Assembly (NCBI GenBank): GCA_017448455.1
Contig: JAFSLL010000210.1
Coordinates: forward strand, 1 to 34,288
Length of the DNA stretch: 34,288 bases
Direction: 5' to 3'
DNA from: Oscillospiraceae bacterium
GTDB taxonomy: Bacteria; Bacillota; Clostridia; Oscillospirales; Oscillospiraceae
Shown here: positions 10,921 through 34,288 of the stretch, one piece after another
Layout of the letters: each line of letters begins with the position of its first letter
Position numbering within the stretch: the first letter of the stretch is position 1
The notes under the pieces: model-generated
What the model saw: only the letters and a program-made list of their open reading frames with translations
Told to the model about the DNA's origin: nothing
Database searches by the model: none
Made by a program: the position numbers and the translations under genes

Positions 10921-13900
10921 TCACCGATCGGAGTCGAAGCCATACACGGCGCAGCCGCACCGTCCGGATTGCTTTACACGGTAGAGTGCCGTATCCGCAT
11001 CCTTGAAGAGATCTCCGGAAGGATTCTCACGATCGGAAAAAGCAACACCGACGCTCAGCGAGACCGGCGGCAGGCCGTCTTCCGGCGTCTGGAGCAGTTC
11101 ATTCGTGTGGGCGATCTTGTTCAGAACCAGCTGCCGCATGGAAGAGTTCGCGCGCGTCATCACGATGGCGAATTCGTCCCCGCCCAAGCGGCAGACTGCG
11201 TCGACGGAACGGAAGCTCTGCATCAGCACGTCCGCCACCCGCTTCAGGATTCGATCTCCCGTGTCATGTCCGTAGGTGTCATTGATGGATTTGAACTCAT
11301 CCACGTCCGCAATCATCAGCGCCAGGTGCTCCTGGTCCGCCATGCCCATAAAGAGATCATAACCGCTGCGGTTCAGCAGCCCCGTCAGGGGATCATGGGA
11401 AGCCTCATAGCTCAGTTTGCGGTTCGCACGCTGACTCTCTCTCAAAAAGTCATTATACGTCTGAGTAACAAAACGAAGCTCCGCAGCGCCGGCAGACGGT
11501 ACTTCCTTCTCCTCGCGCATCAGCTCCACCATCTGTGTCAGCGGAATCCAGATCTGCGTCATGATGAAGATGACCTCACCAAGTACGGCAGCTACCAGGA
11601 TAACCAGGAGGATGCTCTGAAGCAGGAGGAAGCGCGACATATTGTTCCTGGTCGCGAGCACCTGCTGCCGCGAGGTTTCAATCAGCTGGTCGGCGCACTG
11701 GGAAACACTTTCCCGGATTCTTTCCTTATAGGCATTGTAGCTGTCTCCGAAAGCCAGAGCCTCCGCTGCGGCCTTCTGCCTGTCCGGGCTCAGCGCGAGC
11801 TCTCCGGGGCTGAGAACAACAGCCGAGACTTTTGCCGGAACCGATTCATCCGGATAGCCAAAGGCAAGCTGCGTCAGCCGCATCGCGTGATATTCCAGCT
11901 CCATCAGTTCGTTGGAATAGTCCAGAGCAGTTGAAAGGCTGCCATACGCGCCGCTCTCATTGCCCTCCAGCAGCTCTTCCAGATTCTCCAGTGCCTTATC
12001 CCGCCGTTTGGTCACATTCGCCTCTTCAAAGAAATTCTCCAGGTGCTGCAGATCTCCCGTGACGACGAACAAGCGGACGCTTTCCGTCAGGTAATCGGAA
12101 CCTGCCTCGAGGTCGTTGGCCGAGTTTTCCGCCAGCAGGTATCGGCTGCTGGCCTCTTCCATTTGCCGGTATCCCCGGTTGATCATGATATCGGATACCG
12201 CCAGCGCTGCTACGATAAGGATTGCGAGGGCTACAAAGATGTAGTTTGTAATACTGAGGCGAACCGCACGCCGTTCCTTGGGCGTTGCCGCCGCGGGCGC
12301 TGCCGGCTCTTCGGCAAGCGGTTTCTGCTCCGGCTTCAACGCTTCCGGATGCAGATCTCTCCGGAGAGTCAGAAAGGGTTCGAACTCCGCCGCCGGTAAG
12401 GGTTTTGAGAAATAATACCCCTGCGCGATATCACAGCCCAGATCCTTCAGCGCAACCATCTGCTCTTCCGTCTCAACGCCCTCAGCAATAACCGGAACCG
12501 AGAGATGGTCGGCAATATCGATGATCACCTCCAGCATGCGGGTATCCTGCTGATCCTGGAACGCGCTCCGGACGAACATCATATCGAGTTTCAGCGCGTC
12601 GATGGGCAGTGTGGAGATCATATTCAGGGATGAGTATCCCGTACCGAAGTCATCCATTTCGATTTTGAAGCCCATTTCCCGCAATCTGTTTACAGTTTCA
12701 ATAATCTGTTCGGAATCCTGCGTATAAGCGGACTCCGTAATCTCCAGAATCAGTTTGGAAGGCTCCAGTTCGTTTTCCCGGAGAATCTGCTCCAGTTTTT
12801 CAGGCAGAGCAGGATCATACATGTCAACCCGGGACACGTTGACAGAAACAGGAATACTGAAGCCCAGACACTCTTTCCACTCCCGAATCTGTCTGGCCGT
12901 TTCGCTCCAGACAAAATGATCCAGTTCCCGAATCAGTCCGTTATCTTCAAAAAGCGGGATGAAAATCCCCGGGCTGATCAGTCCCCTTTCCGGGTGCTGC
13001 CAGCGAACCAGCGCCTCTGCGCCGCACAGGGCTGCCACTTTGGGGCGAATATCAAACTTTGGCTGATAATAGACCTTGAACTGCTTCTCCTGAATAGCCT
13101 GCTGGAAATCGTCAATCAGCTGTTCGGCATACAGCTCCCGCTCATGCATCGTCCTGTCATAGATTCCAATTGTTTTTGTAAAGCTGTTGCGTACCATATC
13201 CGCCGCAATCTTCGCCCGGTCAAAGCGGCGCTCAACATCCAGTGTCTTATCCGCATTGGCATAGACGCCGAGGCGCAGGCGAACCCGGCTGTTGACAGCC
13301 TCATCACCGGCAAGTCCGATGGTGGCATTGTCCAGGATGGCTTTATAGTCCTTCCCGTGCGGGCAGTAAACCAAAAAAGTGTCCGCTTCACGCCGGCAGA
13401 CAATTCCACCGGTATCGGCAACCACCTCGCGAATGCGCTCCCCGATCCGACGGAGCACTTCATCCCCGTAAGAAGTACCGAAGCGCTCATTGATCATATG
13501 GAAGTGGTTAATATCCACGACCATGGCATCCATTTCCAGCTCTTTATGATGCTGGTCGAACTGTTCGGCATAGCGGTAGAAGTACTCCCGATTGTACAGC
13601 CCAGTCAGGGGATCCCGCTCGGTGGACTGGATAATATCACGGTCTTCGCTCAGCTCAATCGCCCGGAGAATACGCGCCTGAATAATCCCCGCCTGCGGAT
13701 AGGGTTTGGGGATATAGTCGATCGCGCCGAGACTCAGGCTTTCCACCTCGGCACTCTGGTCCGCGGTGAGGACAATCACCGGCAGATTCTTCAGCGCCGG
13801 ATCCGCCTTCAGTTCACGCAGGACCTCCATCCCCGGCTTGACCGGCATCATCAGGTCCAGCAGCAGCAGAGACAGTTCGTCCCGATGGCTGTAGACCTGG

Positions 13901-14052
13901 TCGAGTGTCTCCTGCCCGTCGGCGGCATAGATTACTTCATAATCGTTCTCAAGAATGATTCCCAGAAGCTCACGATTGACAAACTCATCGTCCGCAACGA
14001 GGATCAGTCGTTTTCCATTTGCAGAGTGGAATTTCTCATGGCTTTTCAGCAT
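10921..14052 (-). CDS. REC-GGDEF(degenerate)-EAL-TM-sensor-TM-GGDEF cyclic-di-GMP protein
   Basis: 1043 residues. The order is: receiver domain (phosphoacceptor D66, T96, K116); a GGDEF domain whose active site reads EADTF (222-226), so probably inactive; and an EAL phosphodiesterase domain (EAL at 346-348, 'DDFGTGYSS', 'AEGVE' and 'QGYYFSKPL' all kept). Then follow a first membrane helix (about 602-621), a helical extracellular region of about 185 residues, a second membrane helix (about 808-831) and a second GGDEF domain with intact GGDEF (957-961). That last domain has the RxxD inhibitory site (RSVD) exactly five residues before it. It should both make and hydrolyse c-di-GMP. GGAGG 8 bases upstream selects the ATG at 14052 rather than the one at 14067. 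Two hybrid kinases lie just upstream in the same direction. Confidence 0.92.
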   Translation of the reverse strand: MLKSHEKFHSANGKRLILVADDEFVNRELLGIILENDYEVIYAADGQETLDQVYSHRDELSLLLLDLMMPVKPGMEVLRELKADPALKNLPVIVLTADQSAEVESLSLGAIDYIPKPYPQAGIIQARILRAIELSEDRDIIQSTERDPLTGLYNREYFYRYAEQFDQHHKELEMDAMVVDINHFHMINERFGTSYGDEVLRRIGERIREVVADTGGIVCRREADTFLVYCPHGKDYKAILDNATIGLAGDEAVNSRVRLRLGVYANADKTLDVERRFDRAKIAADMVRNSFTKTIGIYDRTMHERELYAEQLIDDFQQAIQEKQFKVYYQPKFDIRPKVAALCGAEALVRWQHPERGLISPGIFIPLFEDNGLIRELDHFVWSETARQIREWKECLGFSIPVSVNVSRVDMYDPALPEKLEQILRENELEPSKLILEITESAYTQDSEQIIETVNRLREMGFKIEMDDFGTGYSSLNMISTLPIDALKLDMMFVRSAFQDQQDTRMLEVIIDIADHLSVPVIAEGVETEEQMVALKDLGCDIAQGYYFSKPLPAAEFEPFLTLRRDLHPEALKPEQKPLAEEPAAPAAATPKERRAVRLSITNYIFVALAILIVAALAVSDIMINRGYRQMEEASSRYLLAENSANDLEAGSDYLTESVRLFVVTGDLQHLENFFEEANVTKRRDKALENLEELLEGNESGAYGSLSTALDYSNELMELEYHAMRLTQLAFGYPDESVPAKVSAVVLSPGELALSPDRQKAAAEALAFGDSYNAYKERIRESVSQCADQLIETSRQQVLATRNNMSRFLLLQSILLVILVAAVLGEVIFIMTQIWIPLTQMVELMREEKEVPSAGAAELRFVTQTYNDFLRESQRANRKLSYEASHDPLTGLLNRSGYDLFMGMADQEHLALMIADVDEFKSINDTYGHDTGDRILKRVADVLMQSFRSVDAVCRLGGDEFAIVMTRANSSMRQLVLNKIAHTNELLQTPEDGLPPVSLSVGVAFSDRENPSGDLFKDADTALYRVKQSGRCGCAVYGFDSDR

Positions 14053-14104
14053 TCGGTTTTCCTCCATCCTGTCTGGCTAAAATCAGCACCCGAACTGCAG
14101 GGTA

Positions 14105-17100
14105 TCATCGCCGGATCAGTTCCTCCAGCGTAGCAAAAAGATTTTCCGGTTCCACCGGTTTGGAGAGATGGGCGTTCAGTCCGGCCTGCATACTGCGCTG
14201 TACGTCCTCGTCAAAGGCGTTTGCCGTAAGCGCGATGATGGGGATCCTCCGCGAATCCGCACGGTTCCGGGCCCGGATGGTTTTGGTTGCCTCCAGACCA
14301 TCCATTACCGGCATGCGCATATCCATCAGAATTGCGTCATAGTATCCCACTTCCTGTTCATCGTATTTTTCTACCGCAACCTGTCCGTTCTGGGCGTAAT
14401 CCACTTCCATTTCCCGCATGGAAAGAAGCATCATAATGATTTCAGCATTGATGTCCACGTCTTCCGCGAGCAGAATCCGTTTCCCCTTCAGGTCCGTCTT
14501 CGCATTCCTGCCGAGCTCGTTCTTCTTTCGGAAAGCCTCCCGGAATTCATCCATCACCGTCGCAGCAAACAGCGGTTTCGGAGCAAAGGTATCCACGCCG
14601 GCATTTTTTGCCTCTTCCGCCACATCATCCCAGTTATATGAGGTCAGGATAATAATCGCGGATTCATAGCCGACGACATTCCGAATCTGTCTGGTGGTTT
14701 CAATGCCGTCCATCTCCGGCATTCTCCAGTCTACAAGGATCAGATGGTATGGCTCCATCCTGGCATGGCGGAGTTTGACCATCTCCAGCCCTTCCGCTCC
14801 GGACAGTGCGATATCGCAGCTGATTCCGACCTGGTTCAGCACCAGTTTCGCGTGTTCGCAGGCCACAGGGTCATCATCAATGACGAGAACTGCCATCTCA
14901 TGGGGATGCATAGCATTGTCACTGTCTCCCTGGTTTTTACGGTCCGATATGCCAAGTGTCACCGCAACGGTAAAGGTGGAACCCTTGCCTTTTTCACTCT
15001 CGACCTCTATATTGCCATTCATCAATTCAACAATGCTCTTCGTAATTGGCATACCGAGGCCGGTGCTGCCGTATTTGCTGGTTGTTGAGGAGTCCTCCTG
15101 GCTGAAGGTATCAAAGAGTCTGGGGAGATAATCCCGACTCATGCCGATCCCGGTATCCCGGATGGTAAAGCGGAGCGTAGCCTTGTCGTCAAACCTTGCA
15201 GTCTCTTCAATCAGGAAGCTGATTTTCCCGCCGGGCGGGGTAAACTTGACCGCATTGCCGAGGATATTGATCATCACCTGTCGGAGCTTCATATCGTCGC
15301 CGATATAATAATCCTGTACATGGCCTTTGATTCTGCACTCGTACTCCAGCCCCTTCTCCCGGCACTGGCCCTGGATCATTGTGTTCACCTGTTCCAGTGC
15401 TTTGGCAAAGGAGAATTCTTCGTTGTTGATCGTCATGCGTCCGGATTCGATTCTGGACATGTCAAGAATGTCGTTGATGATCCCAAGCAGATGCTTTGCA
15501 GAGTCTCCGATCTTCACAAGGTATCCACGTGTTTCCTCCGAAAGATCGGGGCTGTTCAGCGCGATATTATCCAGTCCGATAATGGCGTTCATCGGTGTAC
15601 GGATTTCATGACTCATATTGGACAGAAACGCGGTTTTTGCCCGGTTGGCATCCTCTGCCGCCTCCAGCGCATTGCGCAGCGCCTCATTCCTTGCCAAAGT
15701 CTCACGCATTTCCTGATCGATATCCGTGAAGCCCACGCCGACGGCATGGACAAAATGGTCCTCGCGGTCTTCCGGGCGCCGGACACCGGCCATGCGGAGC
15801 ATCTCATAGGACTCTTCTCCGTCCCGAACCCGCAGGTAACGGTAAGTAATAATCAGTTCCTTTGCAAGCCTTTGGCGGATGTTATCCGGATCGATAAACC
15901 GCAGGAACCCCTCGCGGTAAGGCTCCGCGACCTGGTTCTGCGCATAGGCGGCAAAGGTTTCGTAAAAGGGGAAATGCTCTCCCACAGAAACCGCATCCTT
16001 GAAAGACCGGTCGGTCCGATAACAGATCCCCTCATCCGTATCCAGCGTCACATAGTAAACACAGCGGTAATCGGATGCCATGGCTGTGATCATCTGCGAC
16101 TGCTGCTCGCTCTCCTTCTGCTGCTCCAGCAGTTCCTCCTGCAGCCGGATCTTCTCCGCGAGCTCCTGCTGTCTGGCCTCTGCGGCCTTGATCCTGGTCA
16201 TTTCCGTCACATCGACGCACATACCGAGGGTACAGAGCCGCCCGGCACCATCTGTAAACTTCATCTTTGTCGTCTGGAGATTCCGGAAAACGGTCCCGGT
16301 TGCATCCGCTACATCTTCAAAGAAGATATACGGCTCATCCATCGCCAGCGCTTTCCGGTCACTCTCCACGAAATGGTCCGCGGTATCTTTATCAAAAATC
16401 TCATGATCCGTCAGGCCAATCACGCCCTCCGGTGTCTCTTTTCCCGCATACTCGGCAAAAGCCTGATTGCAGGCGAGGTACTGTCCGGTTTCCGCGTCTT
16501 TGGAAAAGCTCATCGCCGGCATATTCGACAGGAGCGAAGCAACCGAGCCCATCAGGCCGGCAAGCTTTGCCGCAGACTCGACCTCTTCCATCAGGCGACG
16601 GTTTTCTTCTTCCGCACGCTTTGCCTCCTGCAGAGCCTTTTGAACGCGCTGACCTTCCCGCACATCGTCATCCACATCCTTAAAGCCGCAGACAACGCCC
16701 ATTTTCCCGCCCGGCATGTTCACGCGGGCGAACTCAATGCGGAAGTAGCGCTCGCTCCCGTCATTCATGGTGCGGAGATAATTGATATTAAACTGCGGCT
16801 TCTCTTCCAGTCGCCGCACAATGTTCGCTAGGGCCAGCTCTTCATTCAGGCGTGCCTGATCCGAAGGCGCAACGGTCGTGCGGATATAGTATTCTTTAGC
16901 CTGGGAATACTTCATCTGGGTGAGCGCATCGCGGATTGGCGCGGCGTGAGGGGTTTCCCCGGCCACGTCGCCGCGATAAAGGGAAAAGCTTTCCGTCTCC
17001 ACGTCGTTGATCAGCCAGACCGTATGATAGGACTCACTGAGCGCCTCAATGACCGCCTGCCGGACCGCCATGTCGGATTCCATCCGCTCGCGTTTCCCGG

Positions 17101-17497
17101 TAATATCGGAGATGAAGACATAATAGATCCCGCCGTAAGCCTCTGTCTCCGTATAGTGGCCGTAATCATCCACCCAGCGAACGGCTCCGTCTTTGCGGAC
17201 GACACGGTACTCCACGTAATCCATGCCGTCTTCGCCAGTATCGATCTGATCCACAATCGACTGGGATATCACCGCATAATCTTCCGGATGTACCATGCCC
17301 CGGAACGTAAAACCGGTCAGGGATTTGAATTCTTCGAGACTTGCGCAGCCGAAGATGTCCAGGACCACCTTGTTGACATACAACAGTTCTTCGTCTCCGC
17401 CGGCCCGGTAGATAAAAAAGCCTCCCGGCATATGGCTGCCGATCTCTTCCACGACAGGCAGCGTCTCTGCATTCAGTTCAAACTGCTTTCCAAACAT
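14105..17497 (-). CDS. Soluble multi-PAS hybrid histidine kinase with two receiver domains
   Basis: 1130 residues with no membrane helix. PAS-like domains occupy about 20-135, 155-275 and 320-435. A coiled linker (435-470) is followed by another PAS-like module (470-595, 'MITAMASDYRCVYYV') shared with the upstream kinase. The HisKA domain has the phosphorylated H630 in 'NMSHEIRTPMNAI'. The ATPase domain has N748, 'DTGIGM' and 'STGLGM'. Two receiver domains carry D923 and D1059. No HPt domain is present, so relay onward would need another protein. Start supported by AGGAGG 7 bases upstream. It lies 29 bases after the upstream kinase and 52 bases before the GGDEF/EAL gene start, so co-transcription is likely and the REC domain of that protein is a plausible target. 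Confidence 0.92.
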   Translation of the reverse strand: MFGKQFELNAETLPVVEEIGSHMPGGFFIYRAGGDEELLYVNKVVLDIFGCASLEEFKSLTGFTFRGMVHPEDYAVISQSIVDQIDTGEDGMDYVEYRVVRKDGAVRWVDDYGHYTETEAYGGIYYVFISDITGKRERMESDMAVRQAVIEALSESYHTVWLINDVETESFSLYRGDVAGETPHAAPIRDALTQMKYSQAKEYYIRTTVAPSDQARLNEELALANIVRRLEEKPQFNINYLRTMNDGSERYFRIEFARVNMPGGKMGVVCGFKDVDDDVREGQRVQKALQEAKRAEEENRRLMEEVESAAKLAGLMGSVASLLSNMPAMSFSKDAETGQYLACNQAFAEYAGKETPEGVIGLTDHEIFDKDTADHFVESDRKALAMDEPYIFFEDVADATGTVFRNLQTTKMKFTDGAGRLCTLGMCVDVTEMTRIKAAEARQQELAEKIRLQEELLEQQKESEQQSQMITAMASDYRCVYYVTLDTDEGICYRTDRSFKDAVSVGEHFPFYETFAAYAQNQVAEPYREGFLRFIDPDNIRQRLAKELIITYRYLRVRDGEESYEMLRMAGVRRPEDREDHFVHAVGVGFTDIDQEMRETLARNEALRNALEAAEDANRAKTAFLSNMSHEIRTPMNAIIGLDNIALNSPDLSEETRGYLVKIGDSAKHLLGIINDILDMSRIESGRMTINNEEFSFAKALEQVNTMIQGQCREKGLEYECRIKGHVQDYYIGDDMKLRQVMINILGNAVKFTPPGGKISFLIEETARFDDKATLRFTIRDTGIGMSRDYLPRLFDTFSQEDSSTTSKYGSTGLGMPITKSIVELMNGNIEVESEKGKGSTFTVAVTLGISDRKNQGDSDNAMHPHEMAVLVIDDDPVACEHAKLVLNQVGISCDIALSGAEGLEMVKLRHARMEPYHLILVDWRMPEMDGIETTRQIRNVVGYESAIIILTSYNWDDVAEEAKNAGVDTFAPKPLFAATVMDEFREAFRKKNELGRNAKTDLKGKRILLAEDVDINAEIIMMLLSMREMEVDYAQNGQVAVEKYDEQEVGYYDAILMDMRMPVMDGLEATKTIRARNRADSRRIPIIALTANAFDEDVQRSMQAGLNAHLSKPVEPENLFATLEELIRR

Positions 17498-17526
17498 CTC
17501 TTATCCTCCTGCGTCTTCCCATTCCC

Positions 17527-20500
17527 TTATTCCGTGATCAGGCTCTCCAGTGTCTCATAGAGCACTTCCGGCTGAACCGGCTTTGAGAGATGAGCATTCA
17601 GCCCTGCCTGCATGCTGCGCTGCACGTCTTCATCAAAGGCATTGGCCGTCAGCGCAATAATCGGGATTGTTTTCGCATCCTCCCTGTCCATCGCCCGGAT
17701 CTGCCGTGTCGCTTCCAGTCCGTCCATCTCCGGCATGCGCATATCCATCAGGACCGCCGCGTAGTACCCGGCGGGGTGTTCCGAAAACAGTTCCACCGCC
17801 CGTCTGCCGTTGACAGCGAGGTCTGCCTGTATCTCTCTTGCCTGCAGAATCATCATCATGATTTCGGCATTGATCTGCACGTCCTCCGCCAGCAGAATCC
17901 GTCTGCCTTTCAGCTCTGCTCTGTTTTCCGCCTGCCTGTTCAGAATACCTTTTCTGCTCATCGCCGAGCGGAACTCCTCCATGACCGTAGCCGCGAAGAG
18001 AGGCTTCGGCAGGAAGCTGTCCACCCCCGCCTCGAGTGCTTCCTCGAGCACATCATCCCAGCGGTAAGCCGTCAGGATAATGATGGCGGATTCATGGCCG
18101 ACAATGCTGCGAATCTGACGGGTGGTTTCCACGCCGTCCATCTCCGGCATCTTCCAGTCCACCAGAATCAGGTTATAGGGATCCATCCTCGTATGACGCA
18201 GCTGAACCATCTCGACCGCATCCCTGCCGGACGTGGCGATTTCCGACGCGATACCGACTTTCTCCAGGACGAGTCGGGCATGCTCGCAGGCGACCGGGTC
18301 ATCATCGACAATCAGCACGCTCATCTCCTGCGGGCTGAGATCATCGTCGCGCGGGTCATCCTCTCTCCGCTCGGAATCCATTAGGGTTACTGTCACGGTA
18401 AAGACAGAGCCTTTTCCTTTTTCGCTCTCCACCTGAATGGTACCGTTCATCATTTCCACAATGTTTTTGGTAATCGCCAGGCCGAGTCCGGAGCTGCCAT
18501 ACTTGTTTGTGGTAGACGAATCCTCCTGCGCGAAAGCGTCGAAGATATGCGGAAGGAAGTCCGGACTCATACCGATGCCGGTGTCCGAGACAACGAACCG
18601 GAGCGTTGACTGCCCGTCATACTGTGCCGTCCGCTCCACGGCAAGTTCCACATTCCCGCCTTCGGGCGTAAACTTCACCGCGTTACTCAGGATATTCACC
18701 AGCACCTGGCGCAGTTTCATATTGTCGCCGATATAGCAGTCGTCAATCTCGCTGTTGATGTGGCACTGGTAGTCCAGATTCTTCTCCGCGCATTGGCCGC
18801 TGACCAGTGTATTGATCGCCTCCAGCAGCTTCTGGATGGAAAACTCTTCATTTCTCAGCGTCATCCGTCCGGATTCAATGCGGGACATATCCAGAATATC
18901 ATTGATCAGGTTCAACAGATGTTCCGCCGAACTGCCGATCTTCGTCAGATACTCTTTTGTTTTCTCCGGTGTTTCCGGGTCGTTCAGCGCAATACTGTCA
19001 AGCCCGATAATGGCGTTCATCGGGGTACGGATTTCATGGCTCATATTGGACAGGAATGCCGTCTTCGCTCTGTTGGCCTGTTCCGCCTGCGCCAGCGCGT
19101 CACTGAGCGCCTGCTGCTGAGCCCGTGTCTTCCGCGTCTCCAGATCCACATCGGTAAAACAGGCGCCGACATTGTTAATCTCGGCGACATCCGCTTCGCA
19201 GGGCTGATGGACGCCAGCAAAACGCACCATTTCGTAGGATTCCTTTCCATGGCGGAACACCTTGTAAGTATAGGAGATGACACGGCTGGTCTTCAGGCCT
19301 TCCCGGATGGAGTCCGGCTGGATAAAACGGAGGAACTCTTCCCGGTACTGATCCGTAATATAACGGTTAGCATAGGAAGTCACCGCTTCCAGATACGGAA
19401 AGCGATCACCGACCTTGAATCCGTCATCCACATCCGAGTGTGATTGATAACAGATGCCGGCATTCTTATCCAGCTCCAGATAGTAGACGCTCCAGTAATC
19501 CGCCGCCAGCGCCGTGATCATCCGATCCTGCTGTTCGCTCTGCTTCTCTTCCCTGAGCAGCTGTTCCTGAAGCTGAAGCCGATGTTCCAGCTCCTCCTGC
19601 TTGACGCGGCTTTCCGCATCCGCGGTCTCTTTTTCCAGCAGGAGCTGCGCGTTTTTTCGATTCTGAAAAATGGTATAGGCAAAAACGGCAATCAGGGCAG
19701 CCACTGTCAGAACGGACTGCAGGACCCCACGCCAGATGATGCCGCGCGTGATCGTGCTGATCTCCTCGGTGATAACGCTCTCCCGAATCAGATAGGTCAG
19801 CATCCAGTCCGTTCCCTGCACCGGGACATAGCTGAGGGTCTCCCGAATTCCGTTATAGGTAAAGGATACTTCCCTGCTGTTTCCATTCCGGAAATCGTCG
19901 AGAAGTTGTTCATAGGAATATCCCTTTTCAAAGACTGCCTGTTTCATCGCCTCCAGCAGATTATCTTCTACCGCCAGACCGCCAAGAACCGTGTTGCTCA
20001 GCGCGATGCCGTCACAGGTATAGATGTTGCAGAATGTTGCCCCGTCTTCCTGCGACTGCATAGAGAGTCCGGACAGCATTTCCCGCATGTCGATCTCCGC
20101 GAAGCAGGCAACCAGCGTCTCCCCCGCATAGTTGATCGGCTCGACGGGAATTGCGATAATCACCTTTTTCTCCGCACTCTCCAGATCCCGAATGGAGATA
20201 TCCGGCTCGGAGATCGTGCGGTAGTCAAAGTGATACTGTTCAATACCATGCTTCAGACCGGAAGAAGTGTAAATGATCCCCTTTGTGTCAACAAACGCGA
20301 ATTTCTCCAGCTGGAAGAGGCTTTTAATTCTGGTCTGATAATCCTGAAGATATTTGCTGCCGCTCAGATCATCCACCGTCATCAGGTTAACCGCAGTCTG
20401 CAGATCCGCGATCCGATCCCGGAGGTTTTCCGCAACAACCTGTTCGCGCCTGCCAGCCAGCTCATCCAGGTAAAAGCGGCTGACCGAGCGGACTGCCGAT

Positions 20501-20616
20501 TCCGTATCCCTTCTGGCGCGGTCTCCCGTCCAGATGGTAAAGAACACCAGTATGATCATCACAAGCACAACGCCGGTTACCGCGAACAGCGTGGTGTTTT
20601 TTTTCCTGAAATTCAT
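17527..20616 (-). CDS. Membrane hybrid histidine kinase with extracellular sensor and two receiver domains
   Basis: 1029 residues. A first membrane helix (about 9-31) and a second (about 297-318) enclose an extracellular region of about 265 residues. Its content ('FAFVDTKGIIYTSSG', 'YVPVQGTDWMLTYLIRE') is typical of dCache-type ligand sensors. A coiled linker, the PAS-like module 'MITALAADYWSVYYL' and HisKA (H527) follow. Next come the ATPase domain (N645, 'DTGIGM', 'SSGLGL') and two receivers (D820, D958). It is a close paralogue of the downstream soluble kinase from the PAS-like module to the C-terminus. The start at 20616 is chosen because GGAGG lies 8 bases upstream; the ATG at 20631 is formed by the GGAGG motif itself. 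First gene of the block, with its own promoter. The ligand is unknown. Confidence 0.92.
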   Translation of the reverse strand: MNFRKKNTTLFAVTGVVLVMIILVFFTIWTGDRARRDTESAVRSVSRFYLDELAGRREQVVAENLRDRIADLQTAVNLMTVDDLSGSKYLQDYQTRIKSLFQLEKFAFVDTKGIIYTSSGLKHGIEQYHFDYRTISEPDISIRDLESAEKKVIIAIPVEPINYAGETLVACFAEIDMREMLSGLSMQSQEDGATFCNIYTCDGIALSNTVLGGLAVEDNLLEAMKQAVFEKGYSYEQLLDDFRNGNSREVSFTYNGIRETLSYVPVQGTDWMLTYLIRESVITEEISTITRGIIWRGVLQSVLTVAALIAVFAYTIFQNRKNAQLLLEKETADAESRVKQEELEHRLQLQEQLLREEKQSEQQDRMITALAADYWSVYYLELDKNAGICYQSHSDVDDGFKVGDRFPYLEAVTSYANRYITDQYREEFLRFIQPDSIREGLKTSRVISYTYKVFRHGKESYEMVRFAGVHQPCEADVAEINNVGACFTDVDLETRKTRAQQQALSDALAQAEQANRAKTAFLSNMSHEIRTPMNAIIGLDSIALNDPETPEKTKEYLTKIGSSAEHLLNLINDILDMSRIESGRMTLRNEEFSIQKLLEAINTLVSGQCAEKNLDYQCHINSEIDDCYIGDNMKLRQVLVNILSNAVKFTPEGGNVELAVERTAQYDGQSTLRFVVSDTGIGMSPDFLPHIFDAFAQEDSSTTNKYGSSGLGLAITKNIVEMMNGTIQVESEKGKGSVFTVTVTLMDSERREDDPRDDDLSPQEMSVLIVDDDPVACEHARLVLEKVGIASEIATSGRDAVEMVQLRHTRMDPYNLILVDWKMPEMDGVETTRQIRSIVGHESAIIILTAYRWDDVLEEALEAGVDSFLPKPLFAATVMEEFRSAMSRKGILNRQAENRAELKGRRILLAEDVQINAEIMMMILQAREIQADLAVNGRRAVELFSEHPAGYYAAVLMDMRMPEMDGLEATRQIRAMDREDAKTIPIIALTANAFDEDVQRSMQAGLNAHLSKPVQPEVLYETLESLITE

Positions 20617-20668
20617 CCGCACTTCCTCCATCTATCTGCAGCCGAAAGGCATACTATCCGATGTTATG

Positions 20669-29205: not shown

Positions 29206-30507
29206 TTACTTTCCCGAAACGGTCAGACCGTCAAAAGCGATATAGGGCAGGCCGAGGAAACCATCCAGAAGGCGGTCACTGCTGATCTCCCGGATATGGT
29301 TGAGCATGTCAGGAATACACCCGCTGATCATGGTCTCTGTCAGCGCGTTGCTGACGCGCCCGTTCTCTATGAGGAAGCTGTTCTTCGCTACGCCGGAAAA
29401 CTCCCCGCTGGAAGCCGGATCTCCGCCGGAAAAGCGCATCACCAGCACGCCGCGGTCAATGCCCCGGATGATCTCCTCCAGGCTCTTCTCTCCGGCGGGA
29501 ACAAACATGTTCCAGGAATTGTTGCCCGCGCGTTTCCCGCCGGTCTTGTTTGCGCCATACTGCGACAGGGCAAAGCTGACCAGTCTGCCGTCGTGGATCA
29601 GGTCATAATCCTCTGCGGGATAGCCTTCACCGGTCAGATGCGTCCTGTCGACCACCTCGTCCGCGTTGGGCGCAAAGCGAAGGGAAAACCGCGGATCGGC
29701 AACCGACTGACCGAGCTTGTCTTTCCAGATGCTGCTGCCGTCGATGAGGCTGCTGTCCGATACAAACTTCCCGATGACTGTCGAGAGGACAATCTCAAGA
29801 AGCGCCGACGGTGCCAGCAGCACCGTTCCGACGAACTTTCCCTGAAGGGGAGACGGATCCAGCTGATTCTCGATTGCGCTGAGTTCGCGCTCGAACAGGG
29901 CGGTTTCAATCACCGGCCGGTCCAGGGTCTTCAGTGTCACGTCACTGCTGAAGAAGGAAGTGCTCTTCTCCCCTTCATGGCCGGAGTACATCAGAGAGAA
30001 GCGGTAGCTGCCGGATTCCGTGCGGCAGCATACGCCGTTGGAGTTCCGGTAAAGAGATCTCTCCGCGTCATGCTCGGTAATCATCTGCTCCAGGAGGATC
30101 TTCGGATGACGTTCCCGGATCATATGCAGGAGTTCTTCCGTCCGTGAGAAAAGAAGATCGGTATCACAGGACGGAGAGCCGTCGGTGTATGCCGTTTCCG
30201 AAGGTTCATCCGCAAACTGCCAGGCAGGATCCGACTCCGCGCCGGCGCAGGCTTCCAGACAGTCGGCAATCGCGCCGCGGATTGCCGCTTCCTCAAAGCG
30301 GTTCACATGGACGGTTCCTTTTCTCTGATCCTTCAACAGCGTAATCACGACATCGCGGTCAAACAGTGTCCGCATCAGGGAGAATTCCCCGCCGTCCACA
30401 TTAAATTCTTTCTTCTCGCTTTCGCTGACAACGCACTGGGCATAATCCGCCCCCATGGTCTTTGCTTCATCCAGGACAAAGCGGGACAGTCTGTTCAGTT
30501 CCTCCAT
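29206..30507 (-). CDS. tldE: TldE/PmbA-family protease subunit
   Basis: 433 residues, the non-metal partner of the TldD/TldE protease. Family features include the N-terminal 'AKTMGADYAQCVVSESEKKEF', the central 'PLQGKFVGTVLLAPSALLEIV', and a C-terminal 'FSGVAKNSFLIENGRVSNA' followed by 'ISG'. No HExxxH motif is present, as expected. In Enterobacteria the TldD-TldE complex degrades unfolded peptides and matures microcin B17. GGAGG 8 bases upstream marks the ATG at 30507 as the start (a TTG at 30522 overlaps the site). It begins 1 base after the TldD stop, so the pair should be made together as a heterodimer. Confidence 0.9.
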   Translation of the reverse strand: MEELNRLSRFVLDEAKTMGADYAQCVVSESEKKEFNVDGGEFSLMRTLFDRDVVITLLKDQRKGTVHVNRFEEAAIRGAIADCLEACAGAESDPAWQFADEPSETAYTDGSPSCDTDLLFSRTEELLHMIRERHPKILLEQMITEHDAERSLYRNSNGVCCRTESGSYRFSLMYSGHEGEKSTSFFSSDVTLKTLDRPVIETALFERELSAIENQLDPSPLQGKFVGTVLLAPSALLEIVLSTVIGKFVSDSSLIDGSSIWKDKLGQSVADPRFSLRFAPNADEVVDRTHLTGEGYPAEDYDLIHDGRLVSFALSQYGANKTGGKRAGNNSWNMFVPAGEKSLEEIIRGIDRGVLVMRFSGGDPASSGEFSGVAKNSFLIENGRVSNALTETMISGCIPDMLNHIREISSDRLLDGFLGLPYIAFDGLTVSGK

Positions 30508-30508
30508 C

Positions 30509-31897
30509 TCATCTGCCTCCAATCATCACTCTGCAGCGGAGCGCCGGACCGCCCATGCCCACCGGCATCGGCTGTTTTTTCCCGCAGAAACCGGAGCTGG
30601 ACCAGACGACGGTATCGCTTACCATATCCACCGTTTTGAGCATATCGAAAGCAACGCCGGAGATGGTGGTGTCCAGCAGGGCTCTGCCGAGCCTGCCTTT
30701 TTTGATCTCATATCCCATGGTTACGCCGAACATGAATTCTCCGGTCGTATCCGCCTGTCCGTTGCCGGAATCGATCAGATAGTATCCGTCCTCCACCGAG
30801 GCGATCATATCCTCCAGTTTGTCTGTTCCCGGATGAACGGCGGTGTTCCGCATGCGGATCAGCGGCTCATCCGAGAACTCCCACGCTCTGGCATTTCCGC
30901 CAGGCTGCATGCCGAAGCGCAGGGCGCTCTCCCGGTTGTTCATATAGCCGGTCAGGATCCCGTTTTCAATCAGCGGCACATCCTGTGCCGGCGTTCCCTC
31001 ATCATCCACAAAAACCGGAAGCGGGCAGCGCTCCCCGAAAGCTGTGTGCGCAAAGTCGGTCAGCGTCACTTTCTCACTGGCTACCTGCCTGTGCAGACTG
31101 TGCGCCGCCACACTGCCGCCGAGCACCAGATCCGCTTCCACCGTGTGGCCGACCGCTTCGTGGGAGAGCATCCCTGTCATGATTCCGCCGAGAATGACGG
31201 TTGTTTCTCCGGCATCGGCGTAAACGCCTTCCCGTTTTTTCATCAGATTCTCATAGAGTCTGTCGATCTCGCCGTACAGATGCGCAGGATCTGCAAAATT
31301 GAGGTCAAAGGTGCCCTCTCCGCCGAACGCGCGGAAGACCTCCACCGGCGCCCCGGTCGGCGTTTCCGCGGTAAGAATCACATAGCAGTAGGAACGCGGC
31401 AGCGCCGTATGCGCATCCATGCCGTCCGATGTGCACAGCAGTTTTTCCATCGAATCTTCCGTCGCGACAATTCTTCGGCTCAGGAGATTCGGGCAATGCT
31501 CCGCAACATAGGCATCCAGCATTCTGGCTGTATCCAGGTACAGCTTCTGCGCCGGATCGTGGTAGTCTTCGGGCAGCCTGCGGCAATCATAGGGCAGACG
31601 CAGAAGCGACGGTTTTTCTGCCTTAACATGGCGATCCATAAAGTCCGCATTGTCTGAAGCCGCACGGAGCACCATCTCCGCAGCATCCGAAGAATACTCC
31701 GCCATGGAGGAGAAGCCCCAGGTTCCGTTGCGGTAAACCCGTGCAGAGACACCGGAAACATTGGAACGCGTGTTGGAAACAACGCTGCCGCCAAGCAGCG
31801 TGACCCGGCGGTTACGGTTCAGCTGTCCGCGCAGCTCCGTGTGCGTACCGGTCGAAAACAGCGCTTTCTTCGCGCTCAGTATATCTTCTAACATCAT
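30509..31897 (-). CDS. tldD: TldD-family metalloprotease subunit
   Basis: 462 residues. The zinc motif HExxxH is present as 'SHEAVGHTVEADL' (H246, E247, H251), with a metal-ligand Cys expected near the C-terminus. N-terminal 'SGVSARVYRNGTWGFSS' is typical of the family. The first two codons are both ATG; AGGAG lies 6 bases before the second (31894) and 3 before the first, so the start may be one codon in. The upstream in-frame extension to 31960 has no site of its own. A strong extended -10 promoter lies about 40 bases upstream. No recognisable peptide precursor gene is nearby, so the natural substrate in this organism is unknown. Confidence 0.92.
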   Translation of the reverse strand: MMLEDILSAKKALFSTGTHTELRGQLNRNRRVTLLGGSVVSNTRSNVSGVSARVYRNGTWGFSSMAEYSSDAAEMVLRAASDNADFMDRHVKAEKPSLLRLPYDCRRLPEDYHDPAQKLYLDTARMLDAYVAEHCPNLLSRRIVATEDSMEKLLCTSDGMDAHTALPRSYCYVILTAETPTGAPVEVFRAFGGEGTFDLNFADPAHLYGEIDRLYENLMKKREGVYADAGETTVILGGIMTGMLSHEAVGHTVEADLVLGGSVAAHSLHRQVASEKVTLTDFAHTAFGERCPLPVFVDDEGTPAQDVPLIENGILTGYMNNRESALRFGMQPGGNARAWEFSDEPLIRMRNTAVHPGTDKLEDMIASVEDGYYLIDSGNGQADTTGEFMFGVTMGYEIKKGRLGRALLDTTISGVAFDMLKTVDMVSDTVVWSSSGFCGKKQPMPVGMGGPALRCRVMIGGR

Positions 31898-31936
31898 GAT
31901 CTCCTTCAACTGCGTGTGTTTTATTTGTTTCCATGG

Positions 31937-31965
31937 AGTATACCACAAAAGCAAACACATAACAA
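31937..31965 (-). promoter_or_regulatory. Promoter of the tldD-tldE operon
   Basis: On the minus strand TTGTTA, 17 bases, TATACT with TG one base before it (extended -10). The -35 box touches the end of the preceding terminator hairpin. Confidence 0.65.
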
Positions 31966-32749: not shown

Positions 32750-32770
32750 TCTTTCCTGCGCGCCGCTTTT

Positions 32771-32789
32771 TGTGAACAAATTGTTAACA
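32771..32789. promoter_or_regulatory. Near-perfect 19-bp dyad, candidate operator
   Basis: TGTGAACAAATTGTTAACA has 9-bp arms around a central A with one mismatched pair. It lies between the divergent kinase-like and ribbon-helix-helix genes, centred near -43 of the kinase-like gene. Its TTGTGAAC edge (32770-32777) recurs at 32834-32841 near the other promoter. Confidence 0.45.
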
Positions 32790-32877
32790 GAGTTCGGTTG
32801 TTTTCTCCGTTATCGAAGGATTTCTTAGCGCAATTGTGAACTTTTATATTTTTTGTTATAAAATTTATATATAGCTA

Positions 32878-32906
32878 TTGACAAATTTTCTGGTTTGCCG
32901 TATAAT
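32878..32906 (+). promoter_or_regulatory. Perfect consensus sigma-70 promoter
   Basis: TTGACA (32878-32883), exactly 17 bases, TATAAT (32901-32906). An AT-only stretch upstream, including the dyad TATAAAATTTATA at 32857-32869, could act as an UP element or operator. It drives the ribbon-helix-helix gene and probably clpB. Confidence 0.9.
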
Positions 32907-32950
32907 GCAGACATGAATCAGGATGAATACCTGTGAAGGGAATGATCGTT

Positions 32951-33598
32951 ATGAAAAAGACTTTATATAGCCTGATGCTGAATGACGAGGTCGTCCGGGA
33001 GGTTGATCTTCTGGCACACCGGATGGGCACGAACCGCTCGGCACTGATTAACCAGATTCTGGCAGAGTATGTCAACTACACCACCCCGGAGCGGCGCATC
33101 AACGATGTCCTCTCCGCAATTGAACAGCTGATGGGGCCGAGCAGCGATCTTGTTCCTTTCTTCGCGCCGAACACCTACAGCATGTCGCTGAAAAGCTCGC
33201 TGGAATATAAGTACCGGCCGACCGTTAAGTATGAGGTGGAGCTTTTCCGTGGGGAAGAGGAAAACATCGGCGAGCTCTCCGTGGTTTTCCGCACACAGTC
33301 CCGGGCCCTGATCTCCGTGATGACGGAGTTTTTCCGTCTCTGGAAGAGCATTGAAGACGCACATCTGGCTCCGCTGGTTGGGCACAAGCCGCGTTTTGCC
33401 CTGTATGACGGCCGCTTCACGCGCAGCATCTCGGCGCCGGATCACGACTGCACCACCGACCAGCTTGCATCCGCGCTGTCGGAGTACATTAAGCTCTTCG
33501 ACAAGCTGATGAAGGCCTATGTCAGCGGGCGGCTGAGCGCGCATGAAGTGGAAGCCGCCTACTATTCCCAGATGATCAACAGTCCTATCCACATCTGA
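32951..33598 (+). CDS. Ribbon-helix-helix DNA-binding protein with unknown C-terminal domain
   Basis: 215 residues from the ATG at 32951, chosen because AAGGGA lies about 9 bases upstream; earlier in-frame GTG and ATG codons overlap that site. Residues 1-45 ('MKKTLYSLMLNDEVVREVDL' then 'AHRMGTNRSALINQILAEYV') have the strand-helix-helix pattern of CopG/Arc-type DNA-binding proteins. The remaining 170 residues are not recognised; they are mixed alpha/beta with no Cys pairs or membrane helix. clpB follows 94 bases downstream on the same strand with no promoter seen between. I infer a regulator, possibly of its own promoter and of clpB; neither a CIRCE nor a CtsR box was seen. Direct evidence for the target is absent. 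Confidence 0.8.
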   Translation: MKKTLYSLMLNDEVVREVDLLAHRMGTNRSALINQILAEYVNYTTPERRINDVLSAIEQLMGPSSDLVPFFAPNTYSMSLKSSLEYKYRPTVKYEVELFRGEEENIGELSVVFRTQSRALISVMTEFFRLWKSIEDAHLAPLVGHKPRFALYDGRFTRSISAPDHDCTTDQLASALSEYIKLFDKLMKAYVSGRLSAHEVEAAYYSQMINSPIHI

Positions 33599-33625
33599 CT
33601 TTTCTTTTCTCCTTCTCTTTTTCCC
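33599..33625 (+). other. 27-base homopyrimidine tract before clpB hairpin
   Basis: An uninterrupted C/T run begins directly after the stop codon of the ribbon-helix-helix gene and leads into the stem-loop at 33618-33647. It may affect transcript processing or protein binding; no function can be shown. Confidence 0.5.
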
Positions 33626-33647
33626 GCCCTCTCGAGGGCGGGAAAAA
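33618..33647 (+). repeat. 14-bp perfect stem-loop between the RHH gene and clpB
   Basis: TTTTTCCCGCCCTC and GAGGGCGGGAAAAA pair around TC. The T run is on the 5' arm and an A run ends the 3' arm, so it is not a standard terminator for rightward transcription. It could tune clpB read-through, processing or stability. Confidence 0.6.
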
Positions 33648-33692
33648 CACGAAAGCAAAGTTTTAAACAGTAACACCAAGGAGGTCTGACAT

Positions 33693-34288
33693 ATGAACGC
33701 ACAGAACCTGACACAGAAAAGCCTGGAAGCCATCCAGACCGCCCAGGCTATGGCAAGTGAAAACCGCAACAATTATATTATGCCGGAGCATCTGCTCTAT
33801 GCCCTGATCGACCAGGACGGCGGTCTGATTCCGTCCCTGTTCGAGAAGATGGGTGCCGACTGCAACAGCATGCTCGCGGAACTGGATACCGCCATCTCCG
33901 CCTTTCCGAAAGTCGGAAATGCCGGCGAAGTTTACCTCTCCTCAGAGACCAACCGCATTCTGACCGCAGCCGAGAAAGCCGCCAAAAGCATGGGAGACTC
34001 CTATGTCTCCGTCGAGCACCTGATGATTGGAATTTTCGCGTCCCCCACGGCAGCGATCAAGAGGCTGTTTTCCGATCACGGGATTACCAAAAACGGCTTT
34101 ACCGCAGAACTCTCCAAGGTAAAGTCCTCCCCTGTCACGGGTGACAATCCTGAGAGCACCTATGACGCGCTCGGCAAATACGGCACCGATCTTGTCAAGC
34201 GCGCCCGCGAGAACGAACTGGACCCGGTAATCGGACGCGACAACGAGATTCGAAATGTCATTCGGATTCTCTCCCGCAAGACGAAGAA
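33693..34288 (+). CDS. clpB: ClpB disaggregase, N-terminal part (cut by window edge)
   Basis: The visible 198 residues start '[20 protein letters not shown]' and contain the double Clp-N repeat ('[15 protein letters not shown]', '[11 protein letters not shown]'). They then reach the beginning of the first AAA+ module ('[20 protein letters not shown]', '[20 protein letters not shown]'). The Walker A motif lies just past the window end. ClpB with DnaK rescues aggregated proteins after heat stress; the full protein is normally about 860 residues. A perfect AAGGAGGT ribosome-binding site lies 7 bases upstream, predicting high expression. ClpB rather than ClpC is preferred because of the N-terminal sequence and the '[18 protein letters not shown]' junction. 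Expression probably depends on the consensus promoter upstream of the ribbon-helix-helix gene. Confidence 0.93.

Follow-up and report, generated by a model that had tools for sequence, protein, structure and literature searches.

How is the disaggregase gene clpB controlled where it follows a gene for a ribbon-helix-helix (RHH) protein and none of the familiar heat-shock boxes lies in front of it? The question is raised by the last part of the window, by which we mean the whole 34,288-nt stretch that was analysed. A sequence-only reading of this DNA had described a 215-residue RHH protein with an unrecognised C-terminal domain, a perfect promoter in front of its gene and a clpB gene without CIRCE or CtsR box, and it had put the protein forward as a candidate heat-shock repressor of clpB. 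These descriptive points were borne out by our analysis. The proposed role as a clpB regulator also gained support, from the conservation of the gene pair and from the candidate operator that both genes carry where they have been split, while "heat-shock" and "repressor" are the more conditional parts of the proposal. We consider that the RHH protein very probably regulates clpB through a 42-bp site upstream of its own gene. The features concerned are the following.

32951-33598, + strand: RHH regulator gene, putative (215 codons, 215 aa; ORF call and Pfam).
33693..34286, + strand: 5' part of clpB (198 codons, the rest beyond the window end; Clp_N domain, best NCBIfam model ClpB).
32878-32906, + strand: sigma-70 type promoter TTGACA-N17-TATAAT (exact, 12 of 12 matches).
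32848-32889, no strand: proposed operator, 42 bp, palindromic and conserved across species, found on the detached clpB promoter in two genomes too.
32848-32855: left arm of the operator, ATTTTTTG, followed by 8 nt.
32864-32873: centre of the operator, TTTATATATA, followed by 8 nt.
32882-32889: right arm of the operator, CAAATTTT, overlapping the -35 box.
33618-33647, no strand: perfect 14-bp inverted repeat between the RHH gene and clpB, no T-run after it.
32769-32787, no strand: 19-bp dyad of the sequence-only reading, not conserved and considered to lie outside the system.

Pfam RHH_1 (PF01402) matched residues 10-42 of the protein above its cut-off (E 2.8e-5, 24.3 bits against 20.5), and it was matched at E <= 1 in all 24 members scanned. 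This match would place the protein among the ribbon-helix-helix (CopG/Arc/MetJ) transcription factors and predicts binding of a dimer to a palindrome. The chain consists of the N-terminal RHH part (about residues 1-42) and a C-terminal domain (about 46-215), with invariant residues spread over both. Beyond the RHH part, no domain was recognised by Pfam or NCBIfam in the whole protein or by Pfam in the domain alone, and the domain had no significant sequence match to PDB structures. AlphaFold2 with 32 sequences gave the whole chain a pLDDT of 82.8 (66-83 over five models) and a pTM of 0.75, with residues 1-8 poor, and residues 46-215 a pLDDT of 88.5 and a pTM of 0.87. The predicted C-terminal domain begins with a helix and three or four strands, continues with a second helix and two further strands and ends in two helices; its topology is alpha-beta3-alpha-beta2-alpha. 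Foldseek returned nothing at E <= 0.001 from the PDB or the viral structure library. The PDB matches of highest probability that recurred in the whole-chain and C-terminal searches were InvB, Spa15, ExsC and DR1245 (TM 0.30-0.54; with the C-terminal domain, E 0.038-0.46 and TM 0.35-0.54). The whole-chain list also had the chaperone VecA and 2plg, a YbjN protein, its top row by E-value being the unrelated endonuclease I-DmoI (probability 0.41, TM about 0.2). Type III secretion chaperones bind their partner polypeptides in extended form, so the C-terminal domain could conceivably bind non-native protein or ClpB. The predicted domain weakly resembles the folds of these chaperones and of YbjN, and we treated this as a lead: the topology is alike, as stated for the YbjN/DR1245-class I type III secretion chaperone fold in the part of PMC3575483 consulted, and no sequence similarity was found.

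The pairing with clpB was far from rare in related genomes. In a public-genome scan, the best 80 of 89 relatives of the RHH protein were taken as named loci; they are titled Oscillospiraceae, Ruminococcaceae, Clostridiales, Eubacteriales and similar, nearly all are metagenome assemblies, and a ruminant sample is given for many. clpB was the next gene on the same strand in 78 of them, with a gap of -1 to 659 bp (<=170 bp in 69 of the 78), and the two exceptions were L100 and L103. Five homologues from other families, with 33-44% identity, all had clpB next. In the order-wide sample, the RHH protein was present in 66 of 394 genomes with 12 family codes, and among the 65 carriers besides the window's own genome clpB was next in 63 (gap -4 to 113 bp, one at 547 bp), the other two being cut by contig ends; these 63 testable genomes, all positive, include the five other-family homologues. 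Outside the order the protein was scarce: a phylum sample of 398 yielded four carriers. Three of them belong to the order, the window's genome included; the fourth comes from outside it and again had clpB next (gap 69 bp) with an operator recognisable by eye. Closer to the window, the protein was found in 51 of 99 genomes (own included) and in 46 of the 61 genomes of its genus. None of the 15 same-genus genomes without the RHH gene had a ClpB N-terminus match (E <= 1e-30), and several of these assemblies are incomplete. Since many genomes are metagenome assemblies, with a completeness of 55-100% among those listed, "absent" may mean "not assembled". The assembly of the window's own genome holds a second rhh-clpB copy (G000:C74:5558-6199, L002) with a 72% identical protein. 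In its upstream DNA this copy hardly differs from a locus in a genome of another family (G309:C103, L232); with a reported contamination of 7.29%, one of these two contigs has probably come in by contamination.

Where might such a regulator act? The sequence-only reading had pointed to a 19-bp dyad and a repeated TTGTGAAC in the upstream DNA. Both are present, the former with 8 of 9 arm positions paired, which was equalled by 2.6% of 500 Markov shuffles, and the latter at 32770 and 32834, a repeated 8-mer of the kind that arises in 43% of shuffles. As an operator they did not hold up: among 10 near-relative loci (7 distinct, three duplicated), none had TTGTGAAC in the 250 bp upstream, and the closest dyad match differed at 5 to 8 positions. 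The same stretch (32769-32841) contains three TTGTKAAC units, two directly repeated 11 bp apart and the third 53 bp on; they lie upstream of the divergent cytidylate-kinase-like gene that is the RHH gene's upstream neighbour in the window, and none was seen in near relatives. This neighbour was not found at the other loci of the 80-locus set. On the - strand, paired TldD/PmbA-type metallopeptidase genes (29206-31960) adjoin it. Further away on that strand lie three large adjoining signalling genes (10921-20631); one encodes a receiver-EAL-GGDEF protein, the others hybrid histidine kinases that carry receiver domains and, in one case, PAS domains. The sequence-only reading had missed both the 42-bp element and the 14-bp hairpin. 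The arms of the latter, TTTTTCCCGCCCTC and GAGGGCGGGAAAAA, are U-rich on the 5' side and A-rich on the 3' side, the reverse of a terminator. We rejected it as a conserved attenuator or terminator because it lacks a T-run and its sequence was not common to seven folded near relatives; other predicted stems were present in some of these, and no Rfam RNA element was found at gathering thresholds.

The conserved block upstream of the RHH gene has the symmetric 42-bp consensus ATAATTYG-N8-TTTATATAAA-N8-CRAATTAT. It stands out across species from flanking DNA that is otherwise little conserved: the mean information was 1.00 and 0.95 bit per column inside the block (78 and 63 regions, respectively), against 0.23 and 0.10 upstream and 0.34 and 0.24 downstream. 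The exact consensus was fixed before the DNA of the order sample was examined, with L112-L116, the five other-family loci within the L001-L116 set, common to both sets. Of the distinct upstream regions, 77 of the 87 in the L001-L116 set and 58 of the 65 in the order sample fitted it with no more than 6 mismatches over 26 defined positions; Markov shuffles did so in 1 of 1740 and 3 of 1300 cases, respectively. The other 7 of the 65 (e.g., L231 and L221) exceeded this limit. These 87- and 65-region counts, like those for CIRCE below, omit L016, L050, L105, L109 and duplicate upstream regions. The 8-nt spacers are fixed, and the G and C of the arms are strongly conserved. In nine genomes of the genus, the half-pattern matched both strands 18 bp apart at one site. 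The complementarity of the outer arms was highest at the block centre (0.65 and 0.69; means, 0.29 and 0.30), a result that is favoured by locating the sites with a symmetric consensus. The gene pair and the palindromic site are thus both conserved in the genomes compared, and binding of the RHH protein to the site would be the natural reading of the two. A further GTTCA/TGAAC-type element, no more than 30 bp upstream of the operator, was set aside because only 17 of 78 and 11 of 63 aligned regions had it (L168, L171, L186 and others).

The position of the operator bears on the polarity of the control. The majority of loci have it overlapping the -35 box of a promoter close to consensus; in L100 and L103 it lies over the -10/+1 region (promoter assigned by reading), and in three genomes of one genus (L182, which is L116, L184 and L197) downstream of the -10 box. 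An overlap with the -35, the -10 or the start region suits blocking of transcription, and we think that the RHH protein probably acts as a repressor. However, in L002, L099, L106 and L107 the -35 box is displaced and weak, and the operator lies upstream of the shifted box with its right arm kept. Such a site makes the polarity ambiguous in this lineage, where activation is possible, and the protein might be an activator or dual regulator of rhh-clpB instead of a repressor; for the family this seems unlikely in view of the overlap in most loci. The occurrence of the operator away from -35 in some lineages also means that the element is separable from the promoter.

Whether clpB itself is a target can be judged from G099 and G100, the genomes of L100 and L103, which were the only ones found with the RHH gene apart from clpB. 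The distant clpB gave the only ClpB N-terminus match in each genome. A pattern search with <=2 mismatches gave 21 matches in both genomes against 20 and 21 for the reversed control, which is background. However, pairs of matches on opposite strands 18 bp apart (0-2 mismatches) occurred at exactly two places: at the RHH gene and at the distant clpB promoter. At the detached clpB, the copies have the sequence TTATTTTG-N8-TTTATATAAA-N8-CAATTTAT and lie over a TTGACA box (L152/L153, read as the reverse complement). A third pair, with two mismatches in each half, lies before a small ORF (L164, G100:C6:30556-30599; G099:C4:138337-138380) and was rejected as a further target because of its spacing of 20 bp instead of 18 bp. 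G099 and G100 are close relatives and the split was probably one event. The operator kept at the detached clpB makes this gene look like a target in trans, so that the two exceptions to synteny strengthen the case for a regulator. Could the protein regulate only itself and serve mainly as an adaptor or cofactor of ClpB, the operon securing stoichiometry? The tight rhh-clpB coupling and the long C-terminal domain with its weak likeness to client-binding chaperone folds would fit such a protein; however, the detached clpB keeps an operator copy of its own, and we regard this reading as quite improbable, though an adaptor role may exist in addition to regulation.

In the genus, the pattern (<=1 mismatch) had 69 matches in 61 genomes, of which 51 were at the RHH gene, in 41 of the 46 carriers. 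The other 18 compare with 15 for the reversed-pattern control and represent no excess of further targets in these genomes; the regulator therefore looks dedicated to the rhh-clpB operon, and we take it as likely that the RHH protein is a dedicated clpB regulator acting at the 42-bp site. These results also bear on another explanation, in which the RHH gene is a bystander and the conserved block no more than an AT-rich UP element joined to the -35 box that a strong housekeeping promoter would have. The block is indeed AT-rich and usually ends in TTGACA, and UP elements lie at just this position. However, an UP element would account poorly for the symmetry, the fixed 8-nt spacers and the strongly conserved G and C of the arms, for sites downstream of -10 in one genus and over it in L100/L103, for a right arm that persists where the -35 box has moved, and for sites that concentrate at the RHH gene (and at clpB in the split genomes) with chance levels elsewhere; this explanation is very unlikely. 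Antitoxin models (BrnA, MazE and VapB) matched the protein weakly and below their cut-offs, which hints at an antitoxin-like member of a toxin-antitoxin pair. This reading is hardly credible, since the downstream neighbour is clpB and not a toxin gene in 78 of the 80 named loci and in all 63 testable genomes of the order sample, so that the adjacency typical of type II systems was not found there, and since the 215-aa protein is longer than typical antitoxins.

If the RHH protein controls clpB, what has become of the HrcA/CIRCE control? ClpB was found in 145 of the 394 order-sample genomes, 60 with and 85 without the RHH gene. The DNA upstream of clpB was examined in 77 of the 85 regulator-free genomes (in the other eight, the gene start was missing or the row not listed), and CIRCE, whose consensus is TTAGCACTC-N9-GAGTGCTAA, was present with <=2 mismatches just before clpB in 61 of them (21/24 and 40/53). 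Among the 65 distinct order-sample regions at RHH-clpB, in contrast, no CIRCE was found upstream or between the genes even with five mismatches, and the best match had at least 6 mismatches in all of these and in all 87 distinct regions of L001-L116. A scan of 116 loci including the window (<=300 bp upstream and the gap; the L105 slice held coding DNA) gave no CIRCE with up to 5 mismatches against 3 in shuffles, and 6 CtsR-like boxes with up to 3 mismatches against 14.6, that is, no excess. Thus, a separate clpB promoter with CIRCE or an above-chance CtsR site was found neither before nor within these operons. PF05848 had no match in the window's own genome, and CtsR_C (PF17727) was found in 2 of 16 genomes (G159 and G336) and in none of eight from the window's genus; the control panels for CtsR were positive only in Lactococcus, so its absence is weak evidence.

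CIRCE itself was present in each of the 16 genomes checked, whether or not they carry the RHH gene, and in the window's genome it stands before groES, hsp20, htpG and hrcA (assigned by Pfam), with one more site near a contig end. Of the 16 regulator-free clpB genes without CIRCE, five directly follow an hsp20 gene (Pfam HSP20) on the same strand (L254, L260, L269, L275 and L291), which suggests hsp20-clpB operons; in L254 and L260, the two checked, CIRCE lies before hsp20 with 1 and 2 mismatches, respectively. In three genera, the species with CIRCE at clpB had one more CIRCE site than the species with RHH-clpB (4 in G336 vs 3 in G159, 3 in G260 vs 2 in G425 and 3 in G249 vs 2 in G078), and in the former one site fronts clpB. 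An extra CIRCE in G078 was considered as a relic of a lost clpB and discarded, as it fronts an hsp20 gene. G168 and G311 have a clpB without RHH gene, CIRCE or operator and are close to RHH carriers on the ClpB tree. By raw count, the RHH gene and CIRCE are mutually exclusive at the clpB genes surveyed, in counts that rest on related genomes. A phylogenetic sign test had 4 usable well-supported pairs (p = 1), too few for power.

The ClpB tree suggested how the exchange may have happened. It was a quick tree of 94 rows (58 with and 36 without the RHH gene) in which 35 of 91 inner branches had a support <80; short or cut clpB loci, the 198-codon window copy and many regulator-free genomes were omitted, and G138, with CIRCE at 3 mismatches, carried no CIRCE label. 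The RHH label changed 12 times on this tree, against 28.6 times when shuffled, and well-supported branches alone force 4 changes. One well-supported clade of 13 mixes families, G159 falling beside the window's genus and apart from its congener G336, suggesting that rhh-clpB units moved between families or that old paralogues were sorted. If they moved as a unit, the replacement may be a whole-operon exchange and not a rewiring of the promoter in place.

Compared with known systems, the arrangement is familiar in kind. HrcA is a repressor encoded with chaperone genes under its own control, and the system described here resembles it in its palindromic operator at the promoter, with CIRCE on most of the examined RHH-free clpB genes of the order; it differs in the RHH family of the protein, the unrelated AT-rich 42-bp operator and the single visible target operon, and CIRCE stays elsewhere. 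CtsR is dedicated to clp genes, heads an operon under its own control and has a direct heptad operator. The RHH gene likewise heads a clp operon; however, its product has no CtsR domain and its site no direct heptad repeat. In actinobacteria, HspR (with HAIR) is a MerR-type autoregulatory repressor of a chaperone operon with clpB among its targets, whereas the clpB-linked protein here is of the RHH type, and Pfam matched no MerR family at E <= 1 in any of the 24 members scanned. Regulators of the NikR type combine an N-terminal RHH with a C-terminal regulatory and oligomerisation domain and use a split palindrome. The RHH protein has a C-terminal domain and a split palindromic candidate site as well; its target would be a chaperone and not nickel uptake, and its C-terminal domain has no significant sequence match to a solved structure. 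In the literature, an RHH protein with clpB did not occur among the matches listed, as titles and abstract openings (preprints and most subscription journals lay outside), nor did such a regulator appear in the parts consulted of PMC2965109 and PMC3933415. As far as these searches show, an autoregulatory chaperone-operon repressor is a known kind, while the protein family, operator and dedicated target are undescribed.

In our proposal, the RHH protein serves as a transcription factor dedicated to its own operon, rhh-clpB, and thereby regulates its own synthesis. Its N-terminal part would bind as dimers to the symmetric 42-bp element that covers the -35 box, and the bound protein would most likely keep RNA polymerase from this near-consensus sigma-70 promoter. 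Upon protein-damage stress, the C-terminal domain would loosen the hold on DNA, directly or via a partner; ClpB and its repressor would then be produced together, and newly made repressor would shut the operon off again. We lean slightly towards proteotoxic or heat stress as the signal, and direct sensing by the C-terminal domain is a tentative idea that we would not favour. In this way, RHH control would replace HrcA/CIRCE at clpB while CIRCE still fronts groESL, hsp20, htpG and hrcA. At its most speculative, and with limited expectation that it will prove right, the proposal would be one of an undescribed class of chaperone-gene repressors, in which an RHH part is joined to a YbjN/T3SC-type domain that binds non-native polypeptide or ClpB and so couples the load of misfolded protein directly to clpB transcription, with rhh-clpB spreading as a self-regulated disaggregase unit that displaces HrcA/CIRCE-controlled clpB.

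The heat-shock control of bacteria is usually taught as the work of a few repressors and sigma factors. Part of a large gut and rumen order seems to have given its disaggregase ClpB a regulator of its own, one that belongs to another protein family. The regulator's family, which Pfam and NCBIfam see only through the RHH part, could then be named in annotations. With its readable operator and the natural experiment of the split genes, the system also offers a case in which the exchange of regulators within an order can be tested. The RHH protein is also a possible direct sensor of misfolded protein.
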